Below, piece by piece: positions 1,709 to 46,005 of a stretch of 64,000 bases of DNA. Under the pieces are notes generated by a model, which was given only the letters and a program-made list of their open reading frames with translations, made no database searches and was not told the origin of the DNA. Origin of the DNA: Flectonema sp. DT1601. Its lineage: Eukaryota; Euglenozoa; Diplonemea; Diplonemida; Diplonemidae. The stretch is taken from the NCBI GenBank assembly GCA_964019425.1, contig OZ025780.1, positions 514,001-578,000 of the forward strand. The letters run 5' to 3'. Position numbers and translations under genes: made by a program. How positions within the stretch are numbered: position 1 is the stretch's first letter; each line of letters opens with the position of its first letter.

Positions 1709-3063
1709 TATTTTTTTTTTTTTTTTAGTGAAAAAGAGATAACTGCGAGAGAAGCAATAAAGTAATTATAATCCAGTCCGCAACAAAAACACCAACAAAG
1801 AATACGGAAAGACTACTAACAACATGTTACCCACCCGACAACACGACACAACAAAACACAACACAACACACACAAGTCCAACTCCGTAAACCGTCGCACA
1901 CACAAACATCGTTATCCTGTAGCGGGGAAAGGAATGAGTGATGATCTAATGTCAGCATCACAATAGTCACGACAAGAAAACGATCGATTCATGCGGTGGG
2001 AAGCAGAAGAATGCCAACACACCCGCAGGATGGAAGAAAACAAGGAAAAAGAAAATAGAAACGGAGAGGAAAGGGGAGGGGAAAGGAAGTGAAATACCAC
2101 TAATTCCCTCACAAGAAGAACTCAGTCACAGACACCAGTAGATCAGCGGATCAAGACCATCTACGAATAAGACTCAAGTGATGGGAAGTGGTGTTATAAT
2201 ATGGATCGCATGTAATATTTACATGTCATATTTCAAAAACCTTTTCAAAACAATTCCATAACAAGAGATCACATCAATGCCGGGATAAGATAAAGATTGC
2301 AAAAGCGGCAAGGCTGTGCACCTGAAACGAAATTGAGTGAAGAAACCATTCTATTTTTAGTTTGATAAATTAGTTTGTTTTTGGCAGCAGAGCTATCTCG
2401 AAACGAAAAACCACTTTTCTCAAAACAGCGTTTTCGTCGAGTCAATGATAAAACAGGCGCGGTGAGCAGAATGTGAAATCTTTTTCACGTTCCTTGCGTC
2501 CCCGCGAAGGAAAAAAAAAAAAAAAAAGAAACGTTTCCAAAAAAGCAATCCGAAGACGCAGAGAAGTCAGTAATGCGTTAAATAAAAACACGACACCACC
2601 TGGAAAGCGGTGGAATGATTCATTCACTGGTGAAAGGAAACAAAAGACCGCACCTCACCCACTGCTGCATGTGCCTCACGAAAAAACACTGATGACCGAT
2701 TAACAACAACAACAACTTTCGGTCAACTCTCTCGTGACTCGGCACAGCTCTATAATTGTACTCCGCCCGTACAACTTGATGCACCTCCGATGACCTTCCT
2801 AAGAAGGCTGCGGGGATGCTTGCTGTGAGCAAGGTCGGCCAAATGTCAAAGGAAAAAATAAGATTTTGCGGATAACGAGTTGTTTGTGTTGGGAAGGGGG
2901 GGGGCATATAATGAGGTGGGAAAAAACAACCAGTTTTAAAAAATAGAATAGAGAGAAGTGCAAGAAAAATAAGTAAATTCAAAAAAAAAAGAAGCAGAAA
3001 ACAAGGCAGACATTTATAAGGACATATCATGTGGTCCATTCAAATGCGCTGTTCCTTTTGCTC
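1709..3063. other. Array spacer (same sequence at 4986-6340)
   Basis: This is 1.36 kb between neighbouring genes of the array and so contains the 3' flank of one and the 5' flank of the next. It has A/T runs, a CA-rich stretch near 1800-1900, a G8 run at 2897 and a (CAA)n tract at 2703. Six-frame reading gives only short frames of biased composition. No RNA gene or mobile element was recognised. Confidence 0.6.
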
Positions 3064-4985
3064 CTACAAACAAGTGGAGCATCCCAAAACTCCATTGAAT
3101 GCTGGTCCACGACTCTTCTGACACCACAGCGCAGGAAGGGCTGCCTGGTATCCGAACACGGCGACGTGGCTGCTGTCAGTCTGAGCAACTGGAAGCTCAA
3201 CCGTCTCACCTCTCGCGACATCCAAGCGGAATGCGGTCATTGGGAACCCCGCTCCGTTCACTTCGATCTTCGGAGCACAGGATCCCGCAGTCCATCCAGC
3301 GGCCGGAAGGCTCGCTGGGAATCCCAAGTTCTGAGTCTTCGAGCAAGGTGGGCAGTGGTACACCACAACCAAGAACGTGCACGACGCGCTGTCTCCGCAC
3401 TCCACTTCGAACTTCGCTCCCGCCGCCACTGGAAGGGCAGGAAAGAACGCGTCCATCTGAGAGTACACGTCAGGAACCTGCACCAGGTTGAGACCCTGTC
3501 CAGACACAGCGGTCGCTCCACTGACTGGGGTCAGGGCGAGCTCAACTCCATTCTGTCTCACTCCGTAGAAAGGAACACGGCAGCACGATTCCAACTTGCA
3601 CGGGAAAGTCGCGCACGCGGTGCTCACCGGAAGTGGAAAAGGGGAAGCAGCTGGGCACATCGAACCTGCTGGCAGAGTCTCACAAGTGGCGAGGAAGGTT
3701 TCAGTTTCCCTCTTTCTCGACGATTGCATTTCGAAGAAGGTGATTCCGTATCCAGCACTCTTGTAAAAGGCGTGTGGTCTGAAGTTTGGTCCGATTTCGT
3801 AGAACTGTCCTTGGGCTACCCCGTGGTCTGAGTACTCTTGGCTGACAATTCCTGTTTGTTTTTTTTAATAATAACAACAACAACAACAACCGTTACTCTT
3901 GACCATATGCGCCACATAAAAAACACGAAAATATCAAAAAAAAAAGAAAACATGACAAGAAGGAAGAAGGCAATTATATAAAATCACAAACCGTTGTATC
4001 CCAAAGCACTATTTTCAATCCAACTGACGACGTATCCTCCCCAACCCTGGGCACCGATCCCCGTGAGAGTGTGAAGAAGCTGCTGGTCATCAGCGGCCGT
4101 GTTCGAAGTGTGGCGAAGCTGCACGATCCCCGTCGTCGCTGAACCACTTCCATCGTACCTTCTCATGAAAAGTTTGCCGTTGTAGTTCCAGACAACTGCG
4201 AACCCTCCGCTTCCGGACAACGTGGCCACGCTTGGAAGCTCAGGTTGGGTACCGGCGAAGATTTCAGCTTGAGTTGCCGTCTGGCTCACTTGAAATGTTG
4301 TTCTGCTCAATCCTCCGGATGGCTGAATCGTTACCTCGACACTTCCACGGGCTTCGTACGCAATCGCCCATCCGCCTCCCACCAAAGCAACCACCCGCGG
4401 TCTGTTTCCGAAGTCCGAAATCTCCTCCGCGTGAACCGACCTGCTTCCATCAGCTGCGTACACCGAAAGGTACAACTTGTAACGAATGGCGCTGTGCCAC
4501 GTCACCGCGAACCCTCCTCCCTCCAACATCGACACGTCCGGGTGCCACTGACCCTGTCCGCTTGGGTCCACGAACTCCAATTCGTCGCTCAGCTTCACAC
4601 CCGCGGAGTTGAAGATCGCCGTGTGCAGCGTTCTCCCCGTCTCCTCGACGTACACAATGACAAACCCTCCCTGCCTTCCGGAGATCACCGGCCAAGCGTA
4701 CGGAGCCTCGTCGTTGTGATTCAAAGCCCAGAACTTGAACAGGTCCGGCAGCTGTACTTCCACATCAGGTCCGGTCACGTGACCGTCGCAGTCGTAGGTC
4801 CTAATATGGTGCTTGCTCTTCGTCGCCAAGTCAGTTCGGTGTTCAACGTGACCACATGTAGGAAGCGGTGACGCCCCGATGACGAGGTAGTCCCCAGCAG
4901 GTGTCAGCGGCTGGCGGGTGTACGGCGAAGGAGTCGCTGATGCCGTCAGTGCCGCAACACCGACCGTGAAAGCTGCGCGAAGCAT
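3064..4985 (-). CDS. Secreted GGF-V-W repeat protein with Cys-rich tail, array copy 2 (complete)
   Basis: Two exons, 3992-4985 and 3064-3851, join across a 140-nt intron (GTTTGT...CAG) to give 593 residues. A signal peptide covers residues 1-17. GGF-type strands (GGFVIVY, GGFAVTW, GGWAIAY, GGFAVVW, GGYVVSW) start near residues 106, 157, 204, 260 and 316, a period of about 50 suggesting a beta-propeller-like or stacked-sheet fold. Similar repeats are common in large secreted bacterial proteins. The intron falls inside repeat five, and only the spliced product completes it, which supports the model. The last 200 residues hold many Cys, including CC and CPPC, so an extracellular role is likely. 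The stop after CSTCL overlaps another GTTTGT; splicing from 3071 to 2823 would swap the last residues for about 67 others, but that exon lacks the gene's codon bias and I do not favour it. Function unknown. Confidence 0.85.
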
Positions 4986-6340
4986 TATTTTTTTTTTTTT
5001 TTTAGTGAAAAAGAGATAACTGCGAGAGAAGCAATAAAGTAATTATAATCCAGTCCGCAACAAAAACACCAACAAAGAATACGGAAAGACTACTAACAAC
5101 ATGTTACCCACCCGACAACACGACACAACAAAACACAACACAACACACACAAGTCCAACTCCGTAAACCGTCGCACACACAAACATCGTTATCCTGTAGC
5201 GGGGAAAGGAATGAGTGATGATCTAATGTCAGCATCACAATAGTCACGACAAGAAAACGATCGATTCATGCGGTGGGAAGCAGAAGAATGCCAACACACC
5301 CGCAGGATGGAAGAAAACAAGGAAAAAGAAAATAGAAACGGAGAGGAAAGGGGAGGGGAAAGGAAGTGAAATACCACTAATTCCCTCACAAGAAGAACTC
5401 AGTCACAGACACCAGTAGATCAGCGGATCAAGACCATCTACGAATAAGACTCAAGTGATGGGAAGTGGTGTTATAATATGGATCGCATGTAATATTTACA
5501 TGTCATATTTCAAAAACCTTTTCAAAACAATTCCATAACAAGAGATCACATCAATGCCGGGATAAGATAAAGATTGCAAAAGCGGCAAGGCTGTGCACCT
5601 GAAACGAAATTGAGTGAAGAAACCATTCTATTTTTAGTTTGATAAATTAGTTTGTTTTTGGCAGCAGAGCTATCTCGAAACGAAAAACCACTTTTCTCAA
5701 AACAGCGTTTTCGTCGAGTCAATGATAAAACAGGCGCGGTGAGCAGAATGTGAAATCTTTTTCACGTTCCTTGCGTCCCCGCGAAGGAAAAAAAAAAAAA
5801 AAAAGAAACGTTTCCAAAAAAGCAATCCGAAGACGCAGAGAAGTCAGTAATGCGTTAAATAAAAACACGACACCACCTGGAAAGCGGTGGAATGATTCAT
5901 TCACTGGTGAAAGGAAACAAAAGACCGCACCTCACCCACTGCTGCATGTGCCTCACGAAAAAACACTGATGACCGATTAACAACAACAACAACTTTCGGT
6001 CAACTCTCTCGTGACTCGGCACAGCTCTATAATTGTACTCCGCCCGTACAACTTGATGCACCTCCGATGACCTTCCTAAGAAGGCTGCGGGGATGCTTGC
6101 TGTGAGCAAGGTCGGCCAAATGTCAAAGGAAAAAATAAGATTTTGCGGATAACGAGTTGTTTGTGTTGGGAAGGGGGGGGGCATATAATGAGGTGGGAAA
6201 AAACAACCAGTTTTAAAAAATAGAATAGAGAGAAGTGCAAGAAAAATAAGTAAATTCAAAAAAAAAAGAAGCAGAAAACAAGGCAGACATTTATAAGGAC
6301 ATATCATGTGGTCCATTCAAATGCGCTGTTCCTTTTGCTC

Positions 6341-8262
6341 CTACAAACAAGTGGAGCATCCCAAAACTCCATTGAATGCTGGTCCACGACTCTTCTGACA
6401 CCACAGCGCAGGAAGGGCTGCCTGGTATCCGAACACGGCGACGTGGCTGCTGTCAGTCTGAGCAACTGGAAGCTCAACCGTCTCACCTCTCGCGACATCC
6501 AAGCGGAATGCGGTCATTGGGAACCCCGCTCCGTTCACTTCGATCTTCGGAGCACAGGATCCCGCAGTCCATCCAGCGGCCGGAAGGCTCGCTGGGAATC
6601 CCAAGTTCTGAGTCTTCGAGCAAGGTGGGCAGTGGTACACCACAACCAAGAACGTGCACGACGCGCTGTCTCCGCACTCCACTTCGAACTTCGCTCCCGC
6701 CGCCACTGGAAGGGCAGGAAAGAACGCGTCCATCTGAGAGTACACGTCAGGAACCTGCACCAGGTTGAGACCCTGTCCAGACACAGCGGTCGCTCCACTG
6801 ACTGGGGTCAGGGCGAGCTCAACTCCATTCTGTCTCACTCCGTAGAAAGGAACACGGCAGCACGATTCCAACTTGCACGGGAAAGTCGCGCACGCGGTGC
6901 TCACCGGAAGTGGAAAAGGGGAAGCAGCTGGGCACATCGAACCTGCTGGCAGAGTCTCACAAGTGGCGAGGAAGGTTTCAGTTTCCCTCTTTCTCGACGA
7001 TTGCATTTCGAAGAAGGTGATTCCGTATCCAGCACTCTTGTAAAAGGCGTGTGGTCTGAAGTTTGGTCCGATTTCGTAGAACTGTCCTTGGGCTACCCCG
7101 TGGTCTGAGTACTCTTGGCTGACAATTCCTGTTTGTTTTTTTTAATAATAACAACAACAACAACAACCGTTACTCTTGACCATATGCGCCACATAAAAAA
7201 CACGAAAATATCAAAAAAAAAAGAAAACATGACAAGAAGGAAGAAGGCAATTATATAAAATCACAAACCGTTGTATCCCAAAGCACTATTTTCAATCCAA
7301 CTGACGACGTATCCTCCCCAACCCTGGGCACCGATCCCCGTGAGAGTGTGAAGAAGCTGCTGGTCATCAGCGGCCGTGTTCGAAGTGTGGCGAAGCTGCA
7401 CGATCCCCGTCGTCGCTGAACCACTTCCATCGTACCTTCTCATGAAAAGTTTGCCGTTGTAGTTCCAGACAACTGCGAACCCTCCGCTTCCGGACAACGT
7501 GGCCACGCTTGGAAGCTCAGGTTGGGTACCGGCGAAGATTTCAGCTTGAGTTGCCGTCTGGCTCACTTGAAATGTTGTTCTGCTCAATCCTCCGGATGGC
7601 TGAATCGTTACCTCGACACTTCCACGGGCTTCGTACGCAATCGCCCATCCGCCTCCCACCAAAGCAACCACCCGCGGTCTGTTTCCGAAGTCCGAAATCT
7701 CCTCCGCGCGAACCGACCTGCTTCCATCAGCTGCGTACACCGAAAGGTACAACTTGTAACGAATGGCGCTGTGCCACGTCACCGCGAACCCTCCTCCCTC
7801 CAACATCGACACGTCCGGGTGCCACTGACCCTGTCCGCTTGGGTCCACGAACTCCAATTCGTCGCTCAGCTTCACACCCGCGGAGTTGAAGATCGCCGTG
7901 TGCAGTGTTCTCCCCGTCTCCTCGACGTACACAATGACAAACCCTCCCTGCCTTCCGGAGATCACCGGCCAAGCGTACGGAGCCTCGTCGTTGTGATTCA
8001 AAGCCCAGAACTTGAACAGGTCCGGCAGCTGTACTTCCACATCAGGTCCGGTCACGTGACCGTCGCAGTCGTAGGTCCTAATATGGTGCTTGCTCTTCGT
8101 CGCCAAGTCAGTTCGGTGTTCAACGTGACCACATGTAGGAAGCGGTGACGCCCCGATGACGAGGTAGTCCCCAGCAGGTGTCAGCGGCTGGCGGGTGTAC
8201 GGCGAAGGAGTCGCTGATGCCGTCAGTGCCGCAACACCGACCGTGAAAGCTGCGCGAAGCAT
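6341..8262 (-). CDS. Secreted GGF-V-W repeat protein, array copy 3 (complete)
   Basis: Exon 1 is 7269-8262, the intron 7129-7268 and exon 2 6341-7128, giving 593 residues as in copy 2. It differs from copy 2 by His185Arg and one silent change in exon 1. This is the array's edge copy. Its upstream flank matches the other units only to about 8338, roughly 75 bp before the start codon, so any promoter element beyond that is different for this copy. An A-run of about 18 followed by TA precedes the ATG. Confidence 0.85.
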
Positions 8263-16422: not shown

Positions 16423-17939
16423 TTGGTTTTTTTTTAACTTTTTATTTTTTTGACTAATAGGAAGAGAGAGAGAGAGGGAAAAAAATTAAAAAATTTCACT
16501 TTCATCTTCAACAACATTATTTTTACCTCCCAAGGAAGTAATATTAAAAAAGGAACACAAAGTGGGAAATCCCGAGAAATATTCAACCACACGCTCTGAA
16601 TGCGGATGCAATACGTTTTTTTGTTTGTTTTTTTTTTTTTTTTTTTTTGCATTAATAAGTATAATAAGAACTAAAAAGAATGTTGGGGGGCAACACACGT
16701 AAATCTCCTTTAGCTTTATTAGTTTAAGTTGATTCACGGTTTCGTGCACAAATAAGAAATCACGGTCAGTGTTATATTACTATTGCAATGGATGATATTT
16801 AAATCTGTCAGTGAGTATCAATTGGTGGACAAGTCTGGTGCCAGCACCCTCGGTAATTCCAGCACCAATAGCGTATATTAATGCTGCTGCTGTTAAAAAG
16901 CTCGTAGTTGGATCCAGAGTACAAGTTACATCGGGCTTCCTCGGTGGTAGCTCCCGTACTGGGGGTTATGATTGTTAAAGACTATTTTCTGTATAGTTCA
17001 AGAGAAAAGCCAATTCTTTTTTTTCCCTGGCACAATTTTTCCTCTTTGAATGTACGATAAGATGAAGTCGTTTAAACGATACAAAAAAAAAAAAAAAAAA
17101 AAAAGCAGCAGCAGCAGCTGTCAGATTTTTCTTCACTTGGCAGATTCCGTTTTCGACACCAGGGAAATAATACATTCAAGTTGGGGAGTATGTTCGATTT
17201 TGTCAAAATCACAACCGTGTTTGTATCATAAAACATAAAGATAATTTTAACATTAGTTTTTTAGATACATGTTGACTACGGGTGATGCGCAACTAAGCAT
17301 AATAAAGTAACTATTTAGGTTTCGAGAATAATCCATATACCTCTTTACCTCTATTCTCTCTCATCAGTATGGTGTAGAAGTAAGTCAGTCAAATGTTGAG
17401 ACTGAGTCATTCCAGTTTGCAGGACTGGAATGTAGTTACTTTAAGAAGAATTATTTTATAATTATAAAAAAAGAAGGGAAATTATATTTTTTTTGTCTTA
17501 TTGACCTTTAAGTGGGGGGGAGAATCGAAAAGAAGAAAAACGGAAAAAAAATAATAAGAGGTTCAACGATTAGCAGTTTATTAACACCAACGCCAAGAAA
17601 AACAGACAACACAACATATTTGTGTGAAAACAAAGGTTATTCACCGATCTTCGTCGGTGCAAACAGGAAAAAAAAGAAGAGAGGGGGAAAAAGAAAAAAA
17701 AGCATTGCGTTGAAAGCATTGTTCACGGTGGCCTAAAAACCTGTAATTTTTTTTTTTTCATTTTTTTTTTTTTTTATTGCACCGTAGTAATAAATAAAAA
17801 AAAAATAAAAAATAAAAAACAAGAAAGGTAATCGTTCAGTTAAAAATAGAAAATACCTGAACGAAGAAAAAAGAATATACAGCAGCAGTAACATAAGTGA
17901 TGTTGTAAATAAATAAATGAAACAAACAAAAAAAAAAAA
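16423..17939. other. Intergenic sequence containing a degenerate rRNA fragment
   Basis: AT-rich, with T- or A-runs at about 16628-16648, 17083-17104 and 17749-17775, and a short (CAG)n tract at 17105-17116. Apart from the 18S-like fragment at 16811-16917, listed separately, I see no gene. Short frames around 16980-17240 and 17512-17736 are homopolymer-driven. Confidence 0.5.
16811..16917 (+). pseudogene. Degenerate 18S rRNA fragment (530-loop region)
   Basis: The stretch reads like the universally conserved small-subunit rRNA segment: CAAGTCTGGTGCCAGCA, then GGTAATTCCAGCACCAATAG, GCGTATATTAA and TTAAAAAGCTCGTAGTTGGA. In working 18S rRNA the first block continues GCCGCGGTAA; here it reads CCCTCGGTAA, altering near-invariant bases, and other positions also differ. 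No further rRNA sequence is obvious on either side, though similarity may run weakly to about 16970. I read it as an old rDNA-derived insertion and not a working gene. Confidence 0.85.
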
Positions 17940-34650: not shown

Positions 34651-34707
<57 letters not shown>

Positions 34708-35453
34708 TTTTTTTTTCGGGAAGATAAAATGGAAACTACTCTCTTTGTCCTTTTTCATTATACTGTTAATTAGTACAATCTTTCTACTGACTCTGATCGT
34801 TGTCTCGACATACAGCGACAGGGAAAACCCGCGAGCTGGGGACGACAGTCTTCTTCAGCATTTAAGCATTTTTCGACTTGAAAAGACATGACCCTTCAAT
34901 TTAATGAGTTCTCATGTTTCTGGGTTTGGGAAGGGGGAATGTGCACTTCTTCTCTTGATCCTTTGTTCTCATGGATCCCTTGTCTCTGTGCACAAAAGAT
35001 AATTCGTCGTCTACCCAGCTTTACATTTGTCGCTGTACCAGTAAATAAAATGGGGCGTAAGAAGGGGGTGTGAGTCGTCCGTCCTTTGATCTCTGGGGCG
35101 TACGGACGTCAAGTTTTTTCGCTTGAAAGTTTTTCATCCTTTTCTTGGGTTGGGGGGCGGCCTTTGATTTTTATAATATGTGTGCGGCCTTTGGCTCCAC
35201 TGGTCGGTGTTTCCTGGGGGGGGTGAAAAGCATGTTTTGGTCCGAGTTTTCCTCGTTGACCGGGGTTTTTTTTTTTTTTTTTTGGGGGGGGTCTGGTTGC
35301 AGGTTGTGTCTCCTGCTTCGCGGGGGCTTTGGTCACGTTTCTAACCTCGCTCCCGCTCTTGTTCTCCCTCGTCCTCTACCATGTGTTTTGGGTTGGCTCT
35401 GGGGTCTTGGCTCTGTCTTTTCCTCGACTCTTGAGACCTCCTTCGTGGAGTCC

Positions 35454-38400
35454 CTAGCGCCTTCCCCCTTTCGACGAGAAGTCCAGGACCCTTCGCGTTG
35501 GATCCCCTTCTCTCTCCCTCATCTCTCCTTGGGTGCTTTTCTCACTCTGTGACGACGACCTTGTGACCAACTCTACTCCTGCCACACCTTGTCCGTCTCG
35601 CTCCGCCGGCTCCGGGCGTACGCCCGCGTCCGTGAACGAGGTCAGGGAGCCCGGGGGCCCGTGTGCGTACCCCATTGTGTCGGGTGTGTCTCCCTTACCT
35701 ACCCGACGCAGTGTGGGTTTCCTGTTGTAACTCCGCGGCGCCTGTTCCCTCGTGGTGCCCTCCACTGGCTCCGGTTCCTTCTGCTTGCGTCTCTTCCTCT
35801 TCGCTTTCCTGCTCGGGTCTGGGGAGAGAACCTCTATCCTCTCCCTCTCTTCTCCCTTCCTGTACCTCCTCCTCGCCTGCCGTTCACCTGAGCTCGGGGT
35901 GGACTCTCCCATTTCCGCCTGCAACACCTGCGGACTTGGGTCCTCCTTTCCGGCCCCCTTTGCCCCCGTCTTTGCCTTCCGGCCTCTCGTGCGTCCCCTT
36001 CCCGTATTTGTCTTCGGCGACACACACTCCTCCCTCTCCTCCTCCATTCCCTTTCTGTACTTCGTCCTCCCTCTCGTGCTCGGTGTCGACACCGTGCCCG
36101 GCGATCTCTCTGCGTCTTCCCCGCTCCCGTCACTACCCACTGCGCGTGGTCCCATCTTCGCCCCCAAACTGGATCTCTCGGCCATTGGTTTTGTTTCGCC
36201 TGAGTTCACCAGCTTTGAAAGGGGCTCCGATTGGCCCTCCCGTCGTGTTTCCGCGTTCCCCCCTTCTGGGTGTAGTCCCAGCATCCAGGCCATCTGACCT
36301 GCGTTCCCCTCGGGCGCCGCTCCCTCTTCCCATTCCTGTTCATCGACCGTCATGGTCATTTGGGAGTCTGACGATCCCTCCTCCTCTGTGTCCGACTCTG
36401 CCACCTGGACCACGTCCTCTGACGTCTCCTCGACGTACTGGACTACTGACCCTTCCGTCACATTTTCTCCGTCGACTTCCATCTCCGACTGTGAGTCTTC
36501 CAGGTCCTCCAACCCCTCCACTCCGTCCATGCCGTCTGACGACGGTGGTTCTCCTGAGTGGTGGGACGTCTCGTCCAGCTCGTCCCCCTTCTCGGCTTGC
36601 AGGTCCTCGGCCAGGTGATGGTTTTCGCCTGAGGTCTCTGCTGCCGACGGGTCTACTGACTGGTCCCTTTCGTCCGTCTGTTCTTCCGCTTCCATGTCCG
36701 ACGTCCCTGGACTCCCCAAGGAGCCTCCCGACATGGAACCGTTCCCTTCGTCCTGCCCTGTCGCTGGGGAGGATGATCTATCGTCATCTCCCTCCGACCC
36801 TTCCGAGCTCAACTCCAGGACTCCCGCCTCTACCCTTTGCACGGCCCCCTTCGGGGTTGGGACCGGGCTCTGCTCGTCTCGGCCCTCTACCCTCGCGTCT
36901 TCTCCTTCCACCGACTCTCGGCCGCCTGACGATCCCGTCCCCTCTTCTGTGTACTGGGGTTCCAGACGCAGTTGTCTTCCCTCCCACCGCATCGTGAAGG
37001 GACCCGTCTGTGTCCCGTGTCCCAGGCAGTTCTTTGCCCCCTCTGTGAAAACCTTCATCACGGCTTCCGTCACTGAGGTCGAGCCCTCCTTCGCCGCTTT
37101 TTCAGCCTCCTCCGTCGCGTGTGTTCTCATCCTCTCTGGCATCTCCACCAGCGTCGTACGCCTCCCCATCAACTCCGCCTCCTCCAGCACCTCTCTCTGG
37201 TCCGTCGACCAGTGTGTCGTGCTTCCTCGCAGCAGCAGGGATGCCTCCGCTGGGACGAGGCCTCCACACGCCTTGGCCGCTACCAGCCCCACCAGGGCTG
37301 CGAAGTATCGCCCCCAGTGTGTGTCTCCCGCTGGCAGGCCAGCTGACCATGTGCCCAACACCTCGAAACGGTGTGTGTCCAACCAGCTCGCCGCCGCCCC
37401 CAGACGGCCCGTTACCGGGTCTTCCTCGCATGCGTACACCAAGGTGTACCTCGTCCCTACTTCGCCAACCACCTCCCCCAGCAGGTGGGTTCGGAGGTAT
37501 CCCTCCGCCTCCCCCTTGCTTGCGAAACTCTTGTGTCTCGCCGCCGCGTAGCCTGACACCATCGAGTTCGCCTCGTTCCAGCATTGGAACAGGCCTACCG
37601 CCCTGCCCCTCGCCACTGCGTACCACTTACGTGGGCTGACACCCTCCGTGGCCCGGGTCGGTTCCCTGGTCTCCGGCTGCCACCTCTCTACGAACCTGTC
37701 CGCCTCCTTCCTGGAGGAGAAACTCTGGTGTGTCGCATTCGGGCACCCTTCCGTCTGTGCCTTCGCCTCCTCCCACGATGCATACACTCCCGGTTTCCAT
37801 CCCACCGCCACCGCATACAGCTTCTCCTCCTTCGACGGGGGGTCGGGGGATGGGGGCTCTTTTTCCTCGGGTTGTCCCACTTCCTGTGCTGGCTCGTCTC
37901 TCAGCCCTACTGCTTCCGCTCCTTGTGCGTCCGTCGTCCGCGCTTCCACCTGGGCTGGCGCTTCGGCTCGTGGTCTGTCTTCGCCTGATGCCGTCGACCC
38001 TCCTGGGAGCGACTGGGATTCATCCGGTTCCGCCGCCTTTCCCCTCAATTGGGACAGCCCCAGATTCATCTCCAGCTCGATCACCAAGTAGTCGAGCCCG
38101 TCCTCCGAGAGTTCCACCGGCTCGTCCCATGCCGCCGATTCCGCTTCCCAGAGGGCCAGGTTCTCCACCCCTCGTGAGCTTTCCGTCACCTGGTGTTCTA
38201 TCACCGACGGGAGCGCTACCAACTTCAGCGCCTCCTGCTGCTCGACTCCCCACCCCTGCTGCGGTGTGACCACCTCGATCTGTGTCTCACCCCCCAGCAG
38301 TTGCGATCTCTCCCTGATCGCGTTGAGCCCTAGCAGCGCTGCCACGTACTCCGCAGTCGCTTCGTCCCATGTCGGTAGGCAGCCCGACCACGTGAACCTC

Positions 38401-41400
38401 CTGTCGAGCGTTCCCATGTGTATCAGGCATGCCGCCGCCCCCAGCTTCTCCATCTCCGCGTTCCAGACGCTCGATACCAGTAGGAGCAGCTTGCGCTGTG
38501 CCTGCCCCCCTGTTACTCGCGTCCGGAGGACACACTCCGCCTCTTCCCTGGACGTGTACCCCGCGGTGTCCTCCTCCGACGGCGGTGCCTCGCGTACCTC
38601 CATCCGGTCCTTGTTCGCCACCGGAATCCATCTCACCGGCACCCCGACGTCCTCTTGGGTCGATCCCTCCACCCTCGAGTAGACCACTACTACTGGTTTC
38701 GTCCCGTGGATCTCCTCTGTCGACACTTGGCTTATTGCCTTGTCGTCTTGCTTCTGCCAGCCTACTCCGTCCCACGTGTATGACACGTAATGCCCCGCGT
38801 TGTCACTCCCGAGGTGTGCGATCGCTCCCGTTTGCTGGTACGTCATCACCCTCTCCCCGACCTGCACCTGGAAGCGCTCTTCCCATCCCAAGGACCCTTG
38901 CGTGTCCTGCTTGTCTCTCTGGAAGATCAAGGAGCTTGGGAGCGAGGCGAAACTCTCTTCCAGCGTGGCCTCATTGCTGCCGCACAGCTTCTCGCAGGAC
39001 CGCTCGACTCTCTCCTTCGTCGGCTGAAGCCTCACTTGTGGTGTACGGCCACACAGTGGGATCAGCGTCAACTCATCCGTCGATCCGGAGGCGTCCGCAC
39101 ATCCCGTGCAGACCAGCTGTTTCAGCTGTACTGCCGAGAACAACGGTTCGCACACCTCTTTCTTCTCCTCCAACAGGGCGTCTACTATGGACGTCAGGGT
39201 TCCTACTACCTCCCCCTGCCGCCTGTCTTGTAGCGGGTCGAACATCTCGGACAGCTTCTCCAGGCACTCCCCACTCCCTTTGACCACTCCACTCAGGAGG
39301 CCCGACATCCCCACTTCCTCCTTCCCCGTCAGCACTTGTGTCAGTGCCGTGCCCTTCAGCAGGCACTGTACGGACGCGTTGAGGTAGCAGGAGTTCCCGA
39401 TGTTCGGCAAACCTCTCATCGTCGGGGGCGGTCCTGCCGACTGTCGCATTACTTCCGGCTGCTGGATCTCTTCCGTTTCCGCTCTCGGTCTTGGTTCTCT
39501 CTCTTGTGATGTCGGCTTCTCCGTCATCTCGGGCGGCGGTTTCGTCCTTGGCAATGGGTTCACTGAGTCCATCGCCACCGACGCCTCCCTCGCTCTCAGT
39601 GCTTCCGCCGTCGCCACTACCACCGATGTCGAGATCCTCCTCGCCATCTCCCCCGCGATCTCCCGGTGTGGCACCGTCGAGTTCGTTGCGCAGATCTGCA
39701 CCAACTTCTTCAGGGTCCCCACTGCTTCCCGTCCCATCCCTCCGTACGCTTCCAGCGCAATTGTCGAGAAATTAATCCCGTGTTTCGTGCACTGCTCCGC
39801 GTACTTGTTCCCTTTCAGGGACTCTGCTTCTCTCGCGGCTTGCCCCGGGGTTTTATACAATTTAATTTTCCCCGGGTTTACCACTGTGATGTCGAAGGCT
39901 CTGCCTCTCCCCTCCCTCAGCCCCTCTTGGCAGTACCAGTCCCCCGGTCTCTGCTTGTTGGGTCCCAGTAGGTGGCTGGGTTCTCTCAGCAGCGGCAATC
40001 CCGCCTGCTTAAAGATGGAGATGAACTCCTCCTTCACCCTCTCGTGTCGCTGGTGCACGTGGCCGTTTTTGATACAGATTGAGGCATGGTATCCCTGCCT
40101 ATCCTGTGGGCCTGAGCATATCCTGCATACTGCCCCTTCCGCGAACAGCGCTGCGCCCAATCGCATCCCACATGCGATCCTGAACGTCTCTGGGTCCATC
40201 GCGCACTCTTCATCTGCTTGTTGCAGCCATGCGCTCGCCTTATCCATGCGCAGGGAGAGCAGCCTCCCTTTATCGCGCGGGTCATTCGCCCCCGCCAGCA
40301 GGCAGTCTCTCTTGACCTGGTCCAGTTTCGCCGAGGACAGCCTCTGGGGGTTCGGCCCCGGCCCGTCTTCTTCTATCCTTAGCTCCTCCGGGAGGGCGAG
40401 GTTCAACCCCTTCTTCAGTGCTGGCATCAGCACCCCCTTGAACCCCTCCCACAGTGACTTGCTCACCCCTTGGACTAATTCCAGGGATCCCAATAGTGCT
40501 GCTCCCCTGTGCTCTGCACATGACCGCAGCCCCAATCCCCCCATCCGGGTCGGCAGTTGTGCTTGCATCCACTTTGGCCCCTCCAGTGTCAGGCCCAACA
40601 CTCGGCTCGCCGTGGACCTCATCAGCTCGTCCACCTTCCGCATCGAGGTGTCCATTTTCCCATGCGTGCAGCATCGCATCAGGTGGGTCACCTTGCAGAA
40701 GCCCATGCATTGCCTTAGGAGCACCATGGCCACCTGCCGGTCCTGCAGGTCTGCTAGCAGCTCCGCTTTCTTCTCCAGCTGCGCCACCTTCCTGTCGACG
40801 AACTCCTGGCAGTGTTCCTCCGTCCCGAACGGTGCCCCCAGGAAGTCCCCGTTGTACAGTGGGGGTCTCATCCCTTCCAACCCCCACCCCAAGGGCAGGG
40901 TGTTCTGGGCTGAGTCGAGCACGTGCGTCTGGCACTTGTCCGGCCTCAGCGTCAGCCCCAGCTCCGCCGTCTCCTTCTGCAGGATTTGGAGGGCCTTGTC
41001 TACCTGTTCCAGGGTGCCCGCCACCAGCCCATCGTCCAGGTAGAAGCACGCCAACTCCGGCTTCGCCTCCAACACCTTCTGCAGCGCCGGCTTGATTGCC
41101 AACGAGAACAGCAAGGGACCCAACGGATCCCCCTGCTGAGCGCCCTCCTCCGAGCTCAGCCTCTCGTCCCCAAACAGCAACCACGTCGGCGCTCCGTAAC
41201 ACCAGCTGACCCAGCTCTCCAGCAGGGTATCCCTCGTCGAATCCAGGAACGCCCCCCTCTTCACGCAGTTGAAGGCGTTCGAGAAGTCTATCTTCACGAA
41301 CACTTTCTGTGACGAGAGCGCGTGCTCCGCGCGGAACTCATGCAGGGTGTGCACCGCCGCCTCCACTCCCCCCGACACCGCTACTCCCAGCTGTCTCACT

Positions 41401-43976
41401 TCTAGCAACGAGCTCCTCGCCTGGGACCTGTATGCCCCGCACAGGATCTTCGCCACCAGCCGCCTCCATGTTTCCCCCACCGCGACTGGCCGGTGCTCCC
41501 CCGGCTTCCCTTCTTTCTCCAGCGCCGTCAGGTTCGCCCCCGCCAGCAGCGGCGCTACTTCCCGCGGCGCCCTCCCGTTCGCCAGAATCCTCACCACCTC
41601 CGTGATCGAGGCTACCAGCCCCGGCACCTCACCCCGCTCCACCACGTCCTTCAGGTGTTGCGGCGCGAGGCCCGAAGGCCCTCCACTCGACCCCCTGTGG
41701 AAGGAGCGTAGGCATGCTAGCAGCTCCACCTCTGCTATCTGCACCTCCTGCCCTGCCGTGGCCGATGGGGGTCCGCTCGCCCTCGGGTGTAGGGTGCGCA
41801 TCTGCTCCAGCACCTTCTCGGTTCGTTCTGCTGGCGGCGGCGCGTCTAGGGCCGAGATCGCCTGTGACAGGCAACCCTCCCTCGCTAGCGACGTGGCCCT
41901 GTCGTTCCTTCCTTTTTGCCCCGCCTCTTTCACTGCTGGCCTTCCCGTCGCCTTGCGGGGGGCCGCCGCTTTCCACAGTCCCTCAAATTCCCCCCGAATC
42001 CATGCTTGCAGGTCGTCGACCGCCCCTGTCAGCTCGCTGGTCGACAACCTCCTACCCCCCCTCCGTATCCTCCGCAGTGTACAAGTCGGGAGCATCAAGA
42101 GCAGCTTCCATGCCCACTCATCGTTCCGCTCCACGACTAGGTCGAGCGACAGCTTGAGTGCTCGCCCCAGATGATGCAACAGGGACACCGGCAGCTTCTT
42201 CGCTATCGGCCTCCTCCTGCTGGCTATTTCCTCCAAAGAGGGGAAGCTCTGGCTCTCCAGCACCCGCTTCCGGAACGCCGTGTACACGTCCCCCAGTTGG
42301 ACCTTCTGCAGTTTCTCACTGCACCCCGGATGCATCGGCTGGTCCTGCCCGATGATCCCACAGCACACCGGACATTCCCGGAGGCCTAGCCTCGCCAACT
42401 GTCCATGCGTCAGCGGGTTGCCACTGAATGCGTGCTCGTCCACGTGTCTTAGGAGCTCCGCCCACTCCTCGAAGCCTCCCTTGTGTTTCGGGCACTCCGC
42501 TTGGGGGCACTCGTGCAGCTGGGCCTGTCGGGAGGCTGTCTGCAGCACTGCCGGCTCGCCTCCTGCTGCTTGCGACAGCGGGCCTGGCGACACTAACTCC
42601 AACCTCCGGGCGCTCTGTAGCAGCCGCGCGACGCAGTCCTCGGATGCCTCCACTGGGTCGTAGTGACACCCGTTCTGCAGGGTCAAGACCAGCGTCTGCT
42701 TCGGGTCCGATGGCCCTTCCACCACCAGCGTTTCCGTCCTCACCACGACGACGAAGCGGCACTGTAGGTCCTCTGCCATGACCTGTAGGGCCAACGCATC
42801 GCCCCAGCATCCATCTTCTTCTAACGCCCTCGCATATACTCCGAATGCGTTCGCGTCCTGGAAGAAGACCTCGAACCTTTCCCTGTTCTTGGTCAGGTAC
42901 CCTGCCGTTCTCCTGCGGAGCTCTCCATGTCTGCCCTTCCACCCCTCTGGCGTCTCTAGGAGTTGGCACACACTCCTGAACAGGCAATTCCCATCCCCAA
43001 TCACCCGAAATACTTTTGCTCCCTCGCACTTCAGGCTTGCCAGTTCCGGCGCGGGTCCCGTCGCTACCCCCAGCCGTCCCTTGAGGTCCAACATCTCCCG
43101 ACACCTCACTGTCTGGTGCACCAATCCGGTACTCAGCTCCCCGCAGGCCTTGCAGATCTGCTTTCCGAGTCTGTCGGAAGCCATCTGGGCCGTTACCTCC
43201 CCCGGTACCACTCCCTTCAGGTGTTGTTTGAAGTGGTACTCTAGGTCACCCCTCACCCAGACGCTGCACCCCACCACCGGGCACTTCGTCCTCTCCTTGC
43301 TTTGCCCTCCTCCTGCCAGGTCTGACGGCCTCGCATACCATGGTCTGGGCTCCGCCTTGTGCCCTCCTGGCTTTGTCCAGTCCCTTTCGGGCCCTGCCCG
43401 TCGCTTCTTCGGTGTCTCCGCCTTGTTCTTCCTTGGCCTCTCTGTCTCCGCGCGGAATCTCTCTCGCCTGGCGTGGAACTTCTCCAACTCTCCCGCCCAC
43501 CGCTCCCACCTCTCCTGCCGTTCCTTCAGCAGCTTCCTCCTCCTCCTTTCCAGCCGCCTTGCCGCCTTGGACGCCACTTTCGGGGACGCCCTCTTCAGGA
43601 GCTCCCTTCCTCCCTTGTCTGGAGGTGGCTTTGGGTGGTCTCGCCTCACCCGGTTCCCGGCCGTTTCCGTTCCCCTCCGCGGGACCCACACCCCCTCTCG
43701 TCCATGTTGGAAAGCGCGTCCGCTTGCCGTATTGTTGGGGCTGTTTGAGCTGTTGGGGGTTACAAATGGGTGCGGGGGGATCGGGCGTGTTACGCGTCGG
43801 CTGATGCGCGATGAAAACAGTGGGCCTTTGTCCAGCGTTGTGAATAGAGGGGTGTGCCATCCGCCTGGCACTGGGGCTAACCTCTGCTTACCCACTCCGG
43901 ACGTCTGTTGCGCCCTCGTTCCACTTAGTAGTGCCCACAGCAGCACGTACCCACACAGTAACATTGTTTTCTCCAT
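35454..43976 (-). CDS. LINE polyprotein: zinc fingers, OTU, RT, restriction-like endonuclease, USP, RNase H-like
   Basis: 2,840 residues from the first in-frame ATG. In order: hydrophobic signal-like segment 4-22 (MLLCGYVLLWALLSGTRA); Arg/Lys-rich region; C2H2 finger 232-254; second Cys/His cluster from 275; OTU protease with DGNC (Cys331) and His438; finger from 490 (CPQAEC) and CPVCC from 535; reverse transcriptase with Asp897 (IDFSNAF), QQGDPLGPLL and YLDD 979-982; CCHC 1284-1301; PD-(D/E)XK-type nuclease around RPGDW (Asp1346) and FDITVVN (Asp1362); USP with NIGNSCYLN (Cys1530) and GHYVSY (His1729); RNase H-like region 1826-1950; two RNase H1-type hybrid-binding domains about 2052-2095 and 2116-2165; second RNase H-like region about 2175-2300; acidic then basic tail. 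RT plus CCHC plus this endonuclease places it with the R2/CRE/NeSL-like LINEs. Both RNase H-like regions lack the usual Asp/Glu set. Roles of the proteases are inferred only. Confidence 0.92.
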   Translation of the reverse strand: MEKTMLLCGYVLLWALLSGTRAQQTSGVGKQRLAPVPGGWHTPLFTTLDKGPLFSSRISRRVTRPIPPHPFVTPNSSNSPNNTASGRAFQHGREGVWVPRRGTETAGNRVRRDHPKPPPDKGGRELLKRASPKVASKAARRLERRRRKLLKERQERWERWAGELEKFHARRERFRAETERPRKNKAETPKKRRAGPERDWTKPGGHKAEPRPWYARPSDLAGGGQSKERTKCPVVGCSVWVRGDLEYHFKQHLKGVVPGEVTAQMASDRLGKQICKACGELSTGLVHQTVRCREMLDLKGRLGVATGPAPELASLKCEGAKVFRVIGDGNCLFRSVCQLLETPEGWKGRHGELRRRTAGYLTKNRERFEVFFQDANAFGVYARALEEDGCWGDALALQVMAEDLQCRFVVVVRTETLVVEGPSDPKQTLVLTLQNGCHYDPVEASEDCVARLLQSARRLELVSPGPLSQAAGGEPAVLQTASRQAQLHECPQAECPKHKGGFEEWAELLRHVDEHAFSGNPLTHGQLARLGLRECPVCCGIIGQDQPMHPGCSEKLQKVQLGDVYTAFRKRVLESQSFPSLEEIASRRRPIAKKLPVSLLHHLGRALKLSLDLVVERNDEWAWKLLLMLPTCTLRRIRRGGRRLSTSELTGAVDDLQAWIRGEFEGLWKAAAPRKATGRPAVKEAGQKGRNDRATSLAREGCLSQAISALDAPPPAERTEKVLEQMRTLHPRASGPPSATAGQEVQIAEVELLACLRSFHRGSSGGPSGLAPQHLKDVVERGEVPGLVASITEVVRILANGRAPREVAPLLAGANLTALEKEGKPGEHRPVAVGETWRRLVAKILCGAYRSQARSSLLEVRQLGVAVSGGVEAAVHTLHEFRAEHALSSQKVFVKIDFSNAFNCVKRGAFLDSTRDTLLESWVSWCYGAPTWLLFGDERLSSEEGAQQGDPLGPLLFSLAIKPALQKVLEAKPELACFYLDDGLVAGTLEQVDKALQILQKETAELGLTLRPDKCQTHVLDSAQNTLPLGWGLEGMRPPLYNGDFLGAPFGTEEHCQEFVDRKVAQLEKKAELLADLQDRQVAMVLLRQCMGFCKVTHLMRCCTHGKMDTSMRKVDELMRSTASRVLGLTLEGPKWMQAQLPTRMGGLGLRSCAEHRGAALLGSLELVQGVSKSLWEGFKGVLMPALKKGLNLALPEELRIEEDGPGPNPQRLSSAKLDQVKRDCLLAGANDPRDKGRLLSLRMDKASAWLQQADEECAMDPETFRIACGMRLGAALFAEGAVCRICSGPQDRQGYHASICIKNGHVHQRHERVKEEFISIFKQAGLPLLREPSHLLGPNKQRPGDWYCQEGLREGRGRAFDITVVNPGKIKLYKTPGQAAREAESLKGNKYAEQCTKHGINFSTIALEAYGGMGREAVGTLKKLVQICATNSTVPHREIAGEMARRISTSVVVATAEALRAREASVAMDSVNPLPRTKPPPEMTEKPTSQEREPRPRAETEEIQQPEVMRQSAGPPPTMRGLPNIGNSCYLNASVQCLLKGTALTQVLTGKEEVGMSGLLSGVVKGSGECLEKLSEMFDPLQDRRQGEVVGTLTSIVDALLEEKKEVCEPLFSAVQLKQLVCTGCADASGSTDELTLIPLCGRTPQVRLQPTKERVERSCEKLCGSNEATLEESFASLPSSLIFQRDKQDTQGSLGWEERFQVQVGERVMTYQQTGAIAHLGSDNAGHYVSYTWDGVGWQKQDDKAISQVSTEEIHGTKPVVVVYSRVEGSTQEDVGVPVRWIPVANKDRMEVREAPPSEEDTAGYTSREEAECVLRTRVTGGQAQRKLLLLVSSVWNAEMEKLGAAACLIHMGTLDRRFTWSGCLPTWDEATAEYVAALLGLNAIRERSQLLGGETQIEVVTPQQGWGVEQQEALKLVALPSVIEHQVTESSRGVENLALWEAESAAWDEPVELSEDGLDYLVIELEMNLGLSQLRGKAAEPDESQSLPGGSTASGEDRPRAEAPAQVEARTTDAQGAEAVGLRDEPAQEVGQPEEKEPPSPDPPSKEEKLYAVAVGWKPGVYASWEEAKAQTEGCPNATHQSFSSRKEADRFVERWQPETREPTRATEGVSPRKWYAVARGRAVGLFQCWNEANSMVSGYAAARHKSFASKGEAEGYLRTHLLGEVVGEVGTRYTLVYACEEDPVTGRLGAAASWLDTHRFEVLGTWSAGLPAGDTHWGRYFAALVGLVAAKACGGLVPAEASLLLRGSTTHWSTDQREVLEEAELMGRRTTLVEMPERMRTHATEEAEKAAKEGSTSVTEAVMKVFTEGAKNCLGHGTQTGPFTMRWEGRQLRLEPQYTEEGTGSSGGRESVEGEDARVEGRDEQSPVPTPKGAVQRVEAGVLELSSEGSEGDDDRSSSPATGQDEGNGSMSGGSLGSPGTSDMEAEEQTDERDQSVDPSAAETSGENHHLAEDLQAEKGDELDETSHHSGEPPSSDGMDGVEGLEDLEDSQSEMEVDGENVTEGSVVQYVEETSEDVVQVAESDTEEEGSSDSQMTMTVDEQEWEEGAAPEGNAGQMAWMLGLHPEGGNAETRREGQSEPLSKLVNSGETKPMAERSSLGAKMGPRAVGSDGSGEDAERSPGTVSTPSTRGRTKYRKGMEEEREECVSPKTNTGRGRTRGRKAKTGAKGAGKEDPSPQVLQAEMGESTPSSGERQARRRYRKGEERERIEVLSPDPSRKAKRKRRKQKEPEPVEGTTREQAPRSYNRKPTLRRVGKGDTPDTMGYAHGPPGSLTSFTDAGVRPEPAERDGQGVAGVELVTRSSSQSEKSTQGEMREREGDPTRRVLDFSSKGGRR

Positions 43977-43979
43977 TCT

Positions 43980-44016
<37 letters not shown>

Positions 44017-44127
44017 ACTCTTCCTTTTCCGTTCCCTTCGCTGTGGATGATTTGTGTATGGAACCCGAAAAAAGACAATCGACTTACCTGCTCTTCTCCT
44101 TGTTAGCCCTGTACGTGTGTGTGGAGT

Positions 44128-44182
<55 letters not shown>

Positions 44183-44334
44183 CCGGCTCGCGTATCCTCC
44201 GCTTTCCGAACTCTTCTGTCTATGCGGTCACCCCCGTACAGTTCCGACGCAGAATGGTAGTCACCACCACAGGCACCAAACAAAGCTAGTGAGAGAGTTC
44301 TTCCTTCTCCTCTCCCGCAGGCTGATTCGTAAAG

Positions 44335-44660
44335 TTTTGTCTTAAAAGAGAGTTTTAACAAGAACAAAAAAAGGATATGCTCTGTTTGCAGGTCTTAAAA
44401 GCAAAGTTTAAACGAGAACAAGAAAAGATATGTTCTTCTCGCGCGCTGACTAGCGGAAGACCGTGTATCAAAGCAGAGTTTAAACAAGAACAAAAAAAAA
44501 AAAAAAGGATTTGTTCTTTTCGCTGTCTTAAGCGGTGTTTAAACGAGAACAAGAAAAGATATGTTCTGTTCGTGCGATGTTTTGCGGAAGACCGTGTCTC
44601 AGTGTAGTCTTAACGAAGAACAAAAGAAAATATTTGTTCTGTTTGCGCGTTCACCAGCGG
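44335..44660 (-). repeat. Tandem monomers upstream of the LINE frame
   Basis: About five related copies of a module containing GTTTAAACGAGAACAAGAAA and ATATGTTCT recur, alternating short (about 53 bp) and long (about 80 bp) versions. The long ones share GCGGAAGACCGTGT. Each core has a GAACA...TGTTC inverted repeat. Position and repetition resemble the promoter monomers at the 5' ends of some LINE families; promoter function is inferred. Confidence 0.6.
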
Positions 44661-44887
44661 TCCAGTCTCCAGAAAAGATGAGAAGGACGTATGAGCTGGA
44701 GGAATAATTAACTTTTGACAAAAGCAAAGTACTCTCGAAGACAACTCGAATCAGAATGCAGGTGGGGAAAATTTCAACTCCCTCTTCAGCAGAGCAAGGT
44801 TTCCACAGCAACAACAATTATCCGCGCCTTCAATGTCCGTTTGTGACTGCTGGCCGACTCAAAGCGTTCGTAGACCGAAGATAGATG

Positions 44888-44918
<31 letters not shown>

Positions 44919-45002
44919 TCCTACCCCGCCGATGTACTAGAGCTTACTGAAGGACCCGCGTTTATCTCCTCCTCTGCAAGTATGCCTATGCAAAATCTAA
45001 TT

Positions 45003-45034
<32 letters not shown>

Positions 45035-45154
45035 CCTCTTTCTTCCTTAGTATTTTCTAAATAAACAACGACAAGTAATACCAAATTCTTCTAAATAAAT
45101 ATGACCTAATTAATATATATAATAAACAATAAATAAAAATTTTTTTCAACAATA
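44661..45154. other. T-run-rich sequence upstream of the LINE
   Basis: T-runs of about 30 lie at 44891-44920 and 45004-45034, each possibly the A-tail of a small minus-strand retroposed piece. The sequence between them (44921-45003) is short and unassigned. No gene is seen. Confidence 0.45.
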
Positions 45155-45270
45155 TACTTTGGCGCAGTGGTTTTTGTCACCGTCTGTCTTCTGGTCCACC
45201 TGGGTTCAATACCCTGTGGGGGTCGGGGGGCGACGGGGGCGACTTCTGCGACTTAAAAGACTTTAAAGCG
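45155..45270 (+). repeat. tRNA-derived SINE-like module
   Basis: TGGCGCAGTGG (45160-45170) fits a pol III A box and GGTTCAATACC (45203-45213) fits a B box, spaced as in a tRNA. The T-arm CTGGG/CCCTG pairs at four of five positions. No tRNA acceptor stem or clear anticodon arm forms, so this is a tRNA-derived head and not a working tRNA. It directly precedes the direct-repeat pair at 45276. Confidence 0.5.
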
Positions 45271-45275
45271 CTAAG

Positions 45276-45928
45276 CGCTTCGCTACACGAACACGAGTGT
45301 GTCACGTGGCTGCCGCCGATTTCTTCTTTTGTTGGGGTGGGGGAGGGTGGATGGGGTGAGCGTGGGGAAGGGTGGTCGGGTTGTGGGATCCGCTTGCGTG
45401 GAAAAATTCCTAGCTGCGCTTTCCTACTCGCTGACGGGGATGGGGCGAGGGAGGGAAAAAACTGTGAAGAAGATGTTTTAATTTAACAATAACAAAAATG
45501 TACTCTAATGTAGACAGATAAATGTAACAAAATAACAGATAGTAACAGAATATACAGACAGATAAACAGACAGATAAACAAACAAATAAATAAGCAAATA
45601 AACAACAATCTAAGAGAGGAATGAAATTAAGAGGAAGTAATTAACAAAAGTAAACAAATAAATAAGGAAGAAGAAGGTCAGTCACATACACCGTCTCTTC
45701 TACGTCGTCGTCGTCGTCGTCTTCGAAGTCGCCGAAACGCTTCGCTACACGAACACGAGTGTGTCACGTGGCTGCCGCCGATTTCTTCTTTTGTTGGGGT
45801 GGGGGAGGGTGGATGGGGTGAGCGTGGGGAAGGGTGGTCGGGTTGTGGGATCCGCTTGCGTGGAAAAATTCCTAGCTGCGCTTTCCTACTCGCTGACGGG
45901 GATGGGGCGAGGGAGGGAAAAAACAATA
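45276..45928. repeat. Pair of 190-bp direct repeats around 270 bp
   Basis: 45276-45466 and 45738-45928 are the same sequence (GCTACACGAACACGAGTGTG to AGGGAGGGAAAAAA), 462 bp apart. The middle is A-rich with GACAGATAAA repeats and a (GTC)n tract at 45703-45721. G-rich stretches inside each repeat could form quadruplexes. There is no reading frame. It could be a local tandem duplication or a miniature element with terminal direct repeats. Confidence 0.8.
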
Positions 45929-46005
45929 AAGTACAGAAACTGTAGCTTTAGAATCGTTGGTCAGGGCCCCAGTAACTTAAAAAAAAAAAAAAATGGTTTT
46001 TTTTA

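Follow-up and report, generated by a model that had tools for sequence, protein, structure and literature searches.

An open reading frame on the reverse strand of the window (the whole 64,000-nucleotide stretch of Flectonema sp. DT1601 DNA analysed here) seems to join two unrelated deubiquitinase folds, OTU and USP, to the reverse transcriptase (RT) of a LINE. Does a mobile element encode both domains on a single protein, are both kept as enzymes, and what might they do for the element?

Architecture of the element and its protein

The frame runs without interruption from 44078 to 35454 (-). It codes for 2840 amino acids from an ATG at 43976 (single ORF, 35454..43976, -) and is open upstream to a TTG at 44078; the start methionine at 43976 is kept in 14 of the 16 copies of the window's own family (F1). 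Residue numbers given here (361-448, 1555-1800, C365 and so on) count from the TTG, and subtracting 34 converts them to the numbering from the ATG. The whole element spans about 11.3 kb (34653..45960, -), from a spliced-leader 5' end to a poly(A) 3' end, both of which were read.

Searched as a whole against Pfam, the frame contains, above cut-off and in this order, OTU (PF02338, E 1e-12 at 361-448), RVT_1 (E 7.5e-17), UCH (PF00443, E 2.7e-11 at 1555-1800, covering all 254 profile positions) and two stretches of Cauli_VI, the hybrid-binding N-terminal domain of RNase H1 (E 2.6e-27). Alignment places a CCHC finger and a restriction-like endonuclease (RLE) motif after the RT. The earlier note, which had read an OTU before the RT and a USP after the endonuclease, was right in both the order and the coordinates.

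At the N-terminal end lies a candidate C2H2 zinc finger (CPVVGC...HFKQH, 43221..43283, -), recognised by pattern only. The OTU cysteine protease domain (42636..43034, -) was identified by Pfam, by alignment and by a PDB sequence search, in which OTUD3 (4bou) matches at E 7.7e-9 with an alignment spanning both Cys and His. Beside the profile match, its catalytic Cys (codon starting at 42986) stands in a DGxC context and its His (codon starting at 42665) in an xHY context. The RT core (RVT_1, 40920..41516, -) possesses the YxDD box (YLDD at 41042-41031) and the catalytic Asp of motif A. It is followed by the CCHC finger and the RLE motif RPxD...D[IV]T (39879..40127, -), which are present at motif level in an alignment of five families of the element with two outside proteins, P0002 of Diplonema and P0004; no Pfam model matched this region in the whole-frame search. 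The USP (C19) domain (38679..39416, -; codons for Cys, His and Asp beginning at 39389, 38792 and 38747) was identified by Pfam and alignment, and combines the profile match with a Cys box, a His box and a third residue, Asp or Asn. Its matches in the PDB sequence search are weak and partial, with USP8 at E 4e-4 over 1513-1581 and others weaker. At motif level, its finger cysteines form two CxxC pairs in families F2-F5, and CxxC plus CxxxC in F1 (16 of 16 copies).

The two hybrid-binding domains (Cauli_VI; 37692..37823 and 37491..37628, -) are flanked by a pair of modules. Module 'a' (38130..38525, -) is RNase-H-like by eye, without the catalytic set and without a Pfam match, and module 'b' (37092..37493, -) was recognised as its repeat by pairwise comparison (27% identity, E 6e-10 in a single comparison). 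The F2 protein (P0005) has the second module ('b') only. The PDB sequence search also matches the R2 retrotransposon protein (9nl2) at the RT and RNase H1 (3bsu) at the second hybrid-binding domain, that is, at the corresponding places.

Poly(A) 3' ends and 5'-truncated copies (L030 and the copy following L031) are LINE-type features, and no long terminal repeats were seen in the element ends read. By its sequence the element is an RLE-type (R2-like) LINE, with P0002-P0004 as the only outside RTs that the RT tree took in.

Elsewhere in the window, a 3277-base unit stands in tandem at 707-8262, with a 333-aa frame occurring three times and a 266-aa frame twice, and an odd partial match to eukaryotic SSU rRNA is found at 16710-17124 (+; 84 bits, model positions 4-1116 in 415 bases). 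Elsewhere in the genome, HSP90 is encoded in one open frame in six like copies, with HSP83-1 (3hjc) as the top PDB match.

Families, active sites and selection

A profile scan over the 89.5 Mb of the genome gave at least 134 UCH matches and at least 67 OTU matches. When contig, strand and frame length were matched between the scans, OTU and USP fell within one open frame at 29 loci or more, which sort by score, profile range and frame length into five families: 16 loci in F1, three in F2, two in F3, six in F4 and two in F5. One more F1 locus (C16), with both domains in two separate frames, was left out of this count. Because at least 29 loci in five families carry both domains, the frame is not a one-copy oddity, and a nested insertion or a chimeric gene is likewise ruled out. 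The earlier note had treated specificity to this one copy as a point against its finding; neither domain proves to be so restricted, and the catalytic residues are conserved between copies.

The order OTU, RT, UCH and Cauli_VI is the same in F2-F5 as in F1 (Pfam, one copy each). Both OTU and UCH are above the Pfam cut-offs in F1-F4. In F5 the UCH is above, and the OTU reaches 21.3 bits in the frame search, just short of the 23.3-bit cut-off, and 27.7 bits in the genome scan, above it. RT identity between families ranges from 37 to 95%, and the RT region separates two groups, (F1,F2,F3) and (F4,F5), with about 64% identity within a group (95% for F2-F3) and 37-39% between them. The 15 further F1 copies are 98.4-99.4% identical to the window in main aligned pieces of 6.3-10.0 kb, the sequence compared reaching 5' only to about window position 45106; the family is therefore young. 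A survey of RVT_1 candidates, 150 of 759 of which were scored, placed none in a frame longer than 2016 aa, and is silent on related families without a USP. In F2 and F3, the linker between RLE and USP contains tandem repeats (TISIAGGLEV...) that differ in number (about 1690-2110 in L032 and about 1810-2390 in L033).

OTU domains are also seen in other frames of the genome. L057 (394-3501, -) shows a weak RVT_1 under cut-off, Penelope-like by eye, and then an OTU (Pfam E 1.6e-6), a domain that scores 32.0 bits in the genome scan, as do five other OTU matches. L056 (1021-7101, +), continuing by coordinates into L036, is a Helitron (Helitron_like_N, PIF1 helicase) with a frame of about 2800 aa and an OTU at its end.

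Active sites were read in 20 copies, namely 16 of F1 (the window and L017-L031) and one each of F2-F5 (L032-L035). Within F1, the OTU residues D362, C365 and H472 are identical in all 15 copies that contain the region, the remaining copy (L031) having a shortened frame without the OTU. The USP residues N1559, C1564, H1763 and D1778 are identical in 16 of 16 copies, which also keep the RT aspartates and the RLE motif. All five families have the same OTU Cys and His and the same USP Cys, His and first Asn. F5 has Asn where F1-F4 have Asp, both at the third USP residue and just before the OTU Gly (its motif reads NGDC); Asp and Asn alike serve at the third catalytic position of known USPs. The OTU Gly is followed by Asn or Asp. 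The catalytic Cys and His reported for both domains in the earlier note are thus present, and are kept among F1 copies as well as between families.

Codon changes were counted against the commonest codon among the 16 F1 copies, as simple counts with no tree. Omega is about 0.21 for the OTU (p 0.011; 7 silent and 4 replacement changes) and about 0.33 for the USP (p 0.012; 11 silent, 10 replacement), compared with 0.10 for the RT, 0.07 for the RLE and 0.31 overall (p 1e-20). Since replacement changes in the F1 USP are about as many as silent ones (10 and 11), selection is weaker on the USP than on the RT. Between F2 and F3, omega is 0.14 for the OTU, 0.34 for the USP and 0.05 for the RT. Judged from these codon counts, both OTU and USP are under purifying selection, in keeping with the earlier suggestion that selection for activity is plausible.

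Origin, relatives and element ends

In the USP tree, a phylogeny of the kind that the earlier note had proposed, a 98/95 branch separates the five LINE USPs from 20 host USPs. The host set comprised 25 loci (L001-L008, L039-L055), from which L043 and L052-L055, whose Cys box was missed by the motif search, were dropped; in five of the 20 in the tree, between one and four stop codons were replaced by X, and the genome has further host USPs outside this set. On the LINE side, the topology is (F1,(F2,F3)) and (F4,F5), two groups that are also found with the RT region. The F1 USP has an end branch of 2.82, and the tree comes with a program warning of long branches meeting. That a host USP was captured recently is rejected, since the LINE USPs stand together and are not close to any of the 20 from the host in this comparison, with a long-branch warning that includes F1. 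A single USP capture before the families split would be the simplest reading, weakened by the long branches.

In the OTU tree, none of five branches is starred, and the sole host OTU included is L010, of three (L009 and L011 were missed by the pattern). For viral relatives of the LINE OTU, 56 stretches matched the pattern and none was confirmed. When the RT tree is rooted on P0004, a very long outgroup, the deubiquitinase-free Diplonema LINEs come out within the families, beside F1-F3 (95/95). At face value, this placement would mean a loss in Diplonema or two gains, from a root that we do not trust.

A protein search with the F1 OTU-to-USP region, the F3 USP and the F5 USP as queries found no LINE-borne USP outside the genome itself; the search requires shared five-residue words and similar length, and distant relatives can be missed by it. 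P0001 (100%) and P0006 (99%), which are identical to queries at these levels, and P0005 (99% to F2) represent the genome's own families. The sole named proteins resembling the LINE are those of Diplonema papillatum (P0002, P0003). Their RT and RLE regions align with the element, but neither OTU nor USP nor hybrid-binding domain was found in them (Pfam at E 0.5). As this Diplonema RT relative is without both deubiquitinase domains, they are not needed for such LINEs in general. P0004, an ENA protein, resembles the element in an OTU before the RT and an RLE-like end; it differs in that its OTU scores 20.3 bits against the cut-off of 23.3 bits and in that, as in P0002 and P0003, Pfam detects no USP. 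Among the matches listed in a literature search covering mainly open-access titles and the openings of abstracts, there was no LINE with a USP and no mobile element with OTU and USP together.

OTU occurs in Dualen-type LINEs. According to the part of PMC4640811 available, NeSL and Utopia-1_TSP LINEs possess an N-terminal Ulp1-like protease. The element shares with R2/NeSL/Utopia-type LINEs N-terminal fingers, an RT, a finger and an RLE; some of these have an N-terminal Ulp1-like cysteine protease. In the element, by contrast, an OTU replaces Ulp1, and a USP after the RLE and two RNase H1 hybrid-binding domains are added. The accessible part of PMC2836005 describes Ginger1 elements with OTU or Ulp1, never both, Helitrons with OTU, and a Trichomonas transposase_11 with Peptidase C19; these too have a deubiquitinase-type domain but are DNA transposons. 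For D. papillatum, retroelements including SLACS reverse transcriptases are mentioned in the portion of PMC10161547 available. As a whole, the kind is known, an RLE LINE with a ubiquitin-system protease; what makes it remarkable is the pair of unrelated, predicted deubiquitinase domains on one protein, kept in five families.

SLACS, CZAR and CRE of trypanosomatids are RLE LINEs of Euglenozoa that are inserted into spliced-leader genes. The present element differs from them, as the leader is its own 5' end and its 5' flanks are unlike leader genes. In the window, this end is a copy of the spliced-leader exon (45924..45960, -; 37 nt, exact pattern, context read) joined directly to the element's leader sequence, without an intron. 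The 37-base pattern occurs 702 times in the genome, and its reversed control 0 times. In the tandem spliced-leader gene arrays (L058, L059) the exon is followed by GTACAG, i.e. by the intron. The L058 leader reads AACCAACG... and is, by eye, two bases off the 39-nt 'Euglenozoa 14' leader printed in the part of PMC3795323 available. Leader, HSP90 and the Diplonema proteins resembling the LINE together point to a euglenozoan host, probably a diplonemid. A 5S rRNA gene lies inside the spliced-leader repeat unit of about 610 bases (L058, 530-649).

The same intron-less exon is found in L021 and L025 right after a LINE poly(A), followed by the element's leader sequence. Further starts with that sequence occur in L060, L061, L063 and L068, and L062 is of another kind, probably F4's; because L060-L063 and L068 were chosen for holding the exon, they provide no independent count. 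Among the matches listed, three of four F1 OTU loci on C1-C17 (C1, C6 and C16) have the exon 2.95-2.97 kb upstream, and at the C17 locus it lies 5.3 kb upstream. At the F4 OTU locus on C18, an exon with a different leader (L064) lies 8.7 kb upstream and is not shown to be that element's start. The 3' end reads TTCCCG and then a poly(A) run. The spliced-leader intron is absent from the element; this shows that the template was a trans-spliced, polyadenylated mRNA. The spliced leader, the hybrid-binding domains and the further families are additional to what the earlier note had found.

Insertion into spliced-leader genes is ruled out, as the 5' flanks read are unlike a leader gene and its intron is absent. 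An A-run of at least six precedes seven of eight element starts, all but that of the window copy. We also observed LINE copies standing head to tail, joined at the poly(A) (L021 at 9685, L025 at 9700, L030 at about 272 and L031 at 9727). Together, the head-to-tail copies and the starts after A-runs suggest A-run targeting. No clear target-site duplications were seen in the few copies inspected by eye. In L061, L063 and L068 the start comes after an A-run belonging to a repeat that all three seem to share. Intron-less leader copies are joined to other sequences in L064, L066 and L067, possibly as retrocopies of other mRNAs or elements, and in L065 a leader copy is followed by GT.

Possible roles of the two deubiquitinase domains

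We postulate, with slightly more confidence than doubt, that the element is a young, probably mobile RLE LINE whose two deubiquitinases are most likely active and work in cis on the retrotransposition complex. The LINE protein would bind its own mRNA, and the RLE would open the target, often an A-run, at which reverse transcription would be primed. OTU and USP, differing in linkage or substrate preference, would free of ubiquitin the LINE protein itself, chromatin or repair factors where the target is cut, or both. Deubiquitination would protect the complex against removal by the proteasome until the whole 11-kb copy has been made with its spliced leader, and the hybrid-binding domains probably keep hold of the RNA-DNA hybrid over so long a synthesis. 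That the element may remove its own ubiquitin or resist degradation, as the earlier note had also considered, is the reading we prefer. The wider proposition, that an old LINE lineage has kept two catalytically active, unrelated deubiquitinases since before the families split, and that OTU and USP have separate substrates or act at separate steps, seems to us evenly poised between true and false.

Alternatively, the domains may act in trans, deubiquitinating host silencing or restriction factors, or histones genome-wide, and be kept as a counter-defence. We regard this as unlikely. The USP evolves faster than the RT, as expected of a host-facing domain, yet faster change fits relaxed constraint as well, and although the genome has an OTU in a Helitron too, and in a further frame with an RT, LINE proteins as a rule work on the RNA that encodes them and no host target is known. 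It is distinctly unlikely that OTU or USP is a polyprotein protease that cuts the 2840-aa protein into RT/endonuclease and C-terminal pieces, in the manner of the tymovirus OTU. R2-type proteins function without being cut, and self-processing is disfavoured because none of the di-glycine sites at domain borders is common to all families. F1-F3 do share an RRGG/RKGG site between OTU and RT, but a like RGG is seen by eye at a similar place in a Diplonema protein that has neither OTU nor USP; the sole site found throughout F1-F5 falls within the RT region. The long linkers between domains, very long in F2-F5, would suit such processing, and a viral OTU with both protease and deubiquitinase activity has been published (PMC5695851, in the part available); even so, this suggestion of the earlier note did not fare well.

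Two further alternatives bear on the domains themselves. One or both might merely bind ubiquitin or another modifier without catalysis, as the divergence of the LINE USPs from host USPs (F1 end branch 2.82) and the variation of some motif positions among families could indicate. We consider this very improbable, given that the USP Cys, His, first Asn and Asp/Asn and the OTU Cys and His are kept in five families in which the rest falls to as little as 27% identity. That two host genes or nested insertions are read as one frame is scarcely credible: elements do insert beside one another (L021, L025, L030, L031), but the same order recurs at no fewer than 29 loci, in five families and on many contigs, the domains are under selection, and the LINE USPs and the host USPs compared are separate.

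Ubiquitin-system cysteine proteases recur in mobile elements, and here two unrelated ones are kept in five diverged families. A part of the ubiquitin pathway in transposition, suggested in the available text of PMC2836005, becomes testable with two point mutations, which is feasible because the domains are small, their active sites are textbook ones, and they are readily made and assayed. The spliced leader at the 5' end offers a built-in marker of complete reverse transcription. If two active deubiquitinases have indeed been kept since before the families split, the ubiquitin system would be a constant part of the life cycle of these LINEs, which would carry their own programme of deubiquitination in cis.
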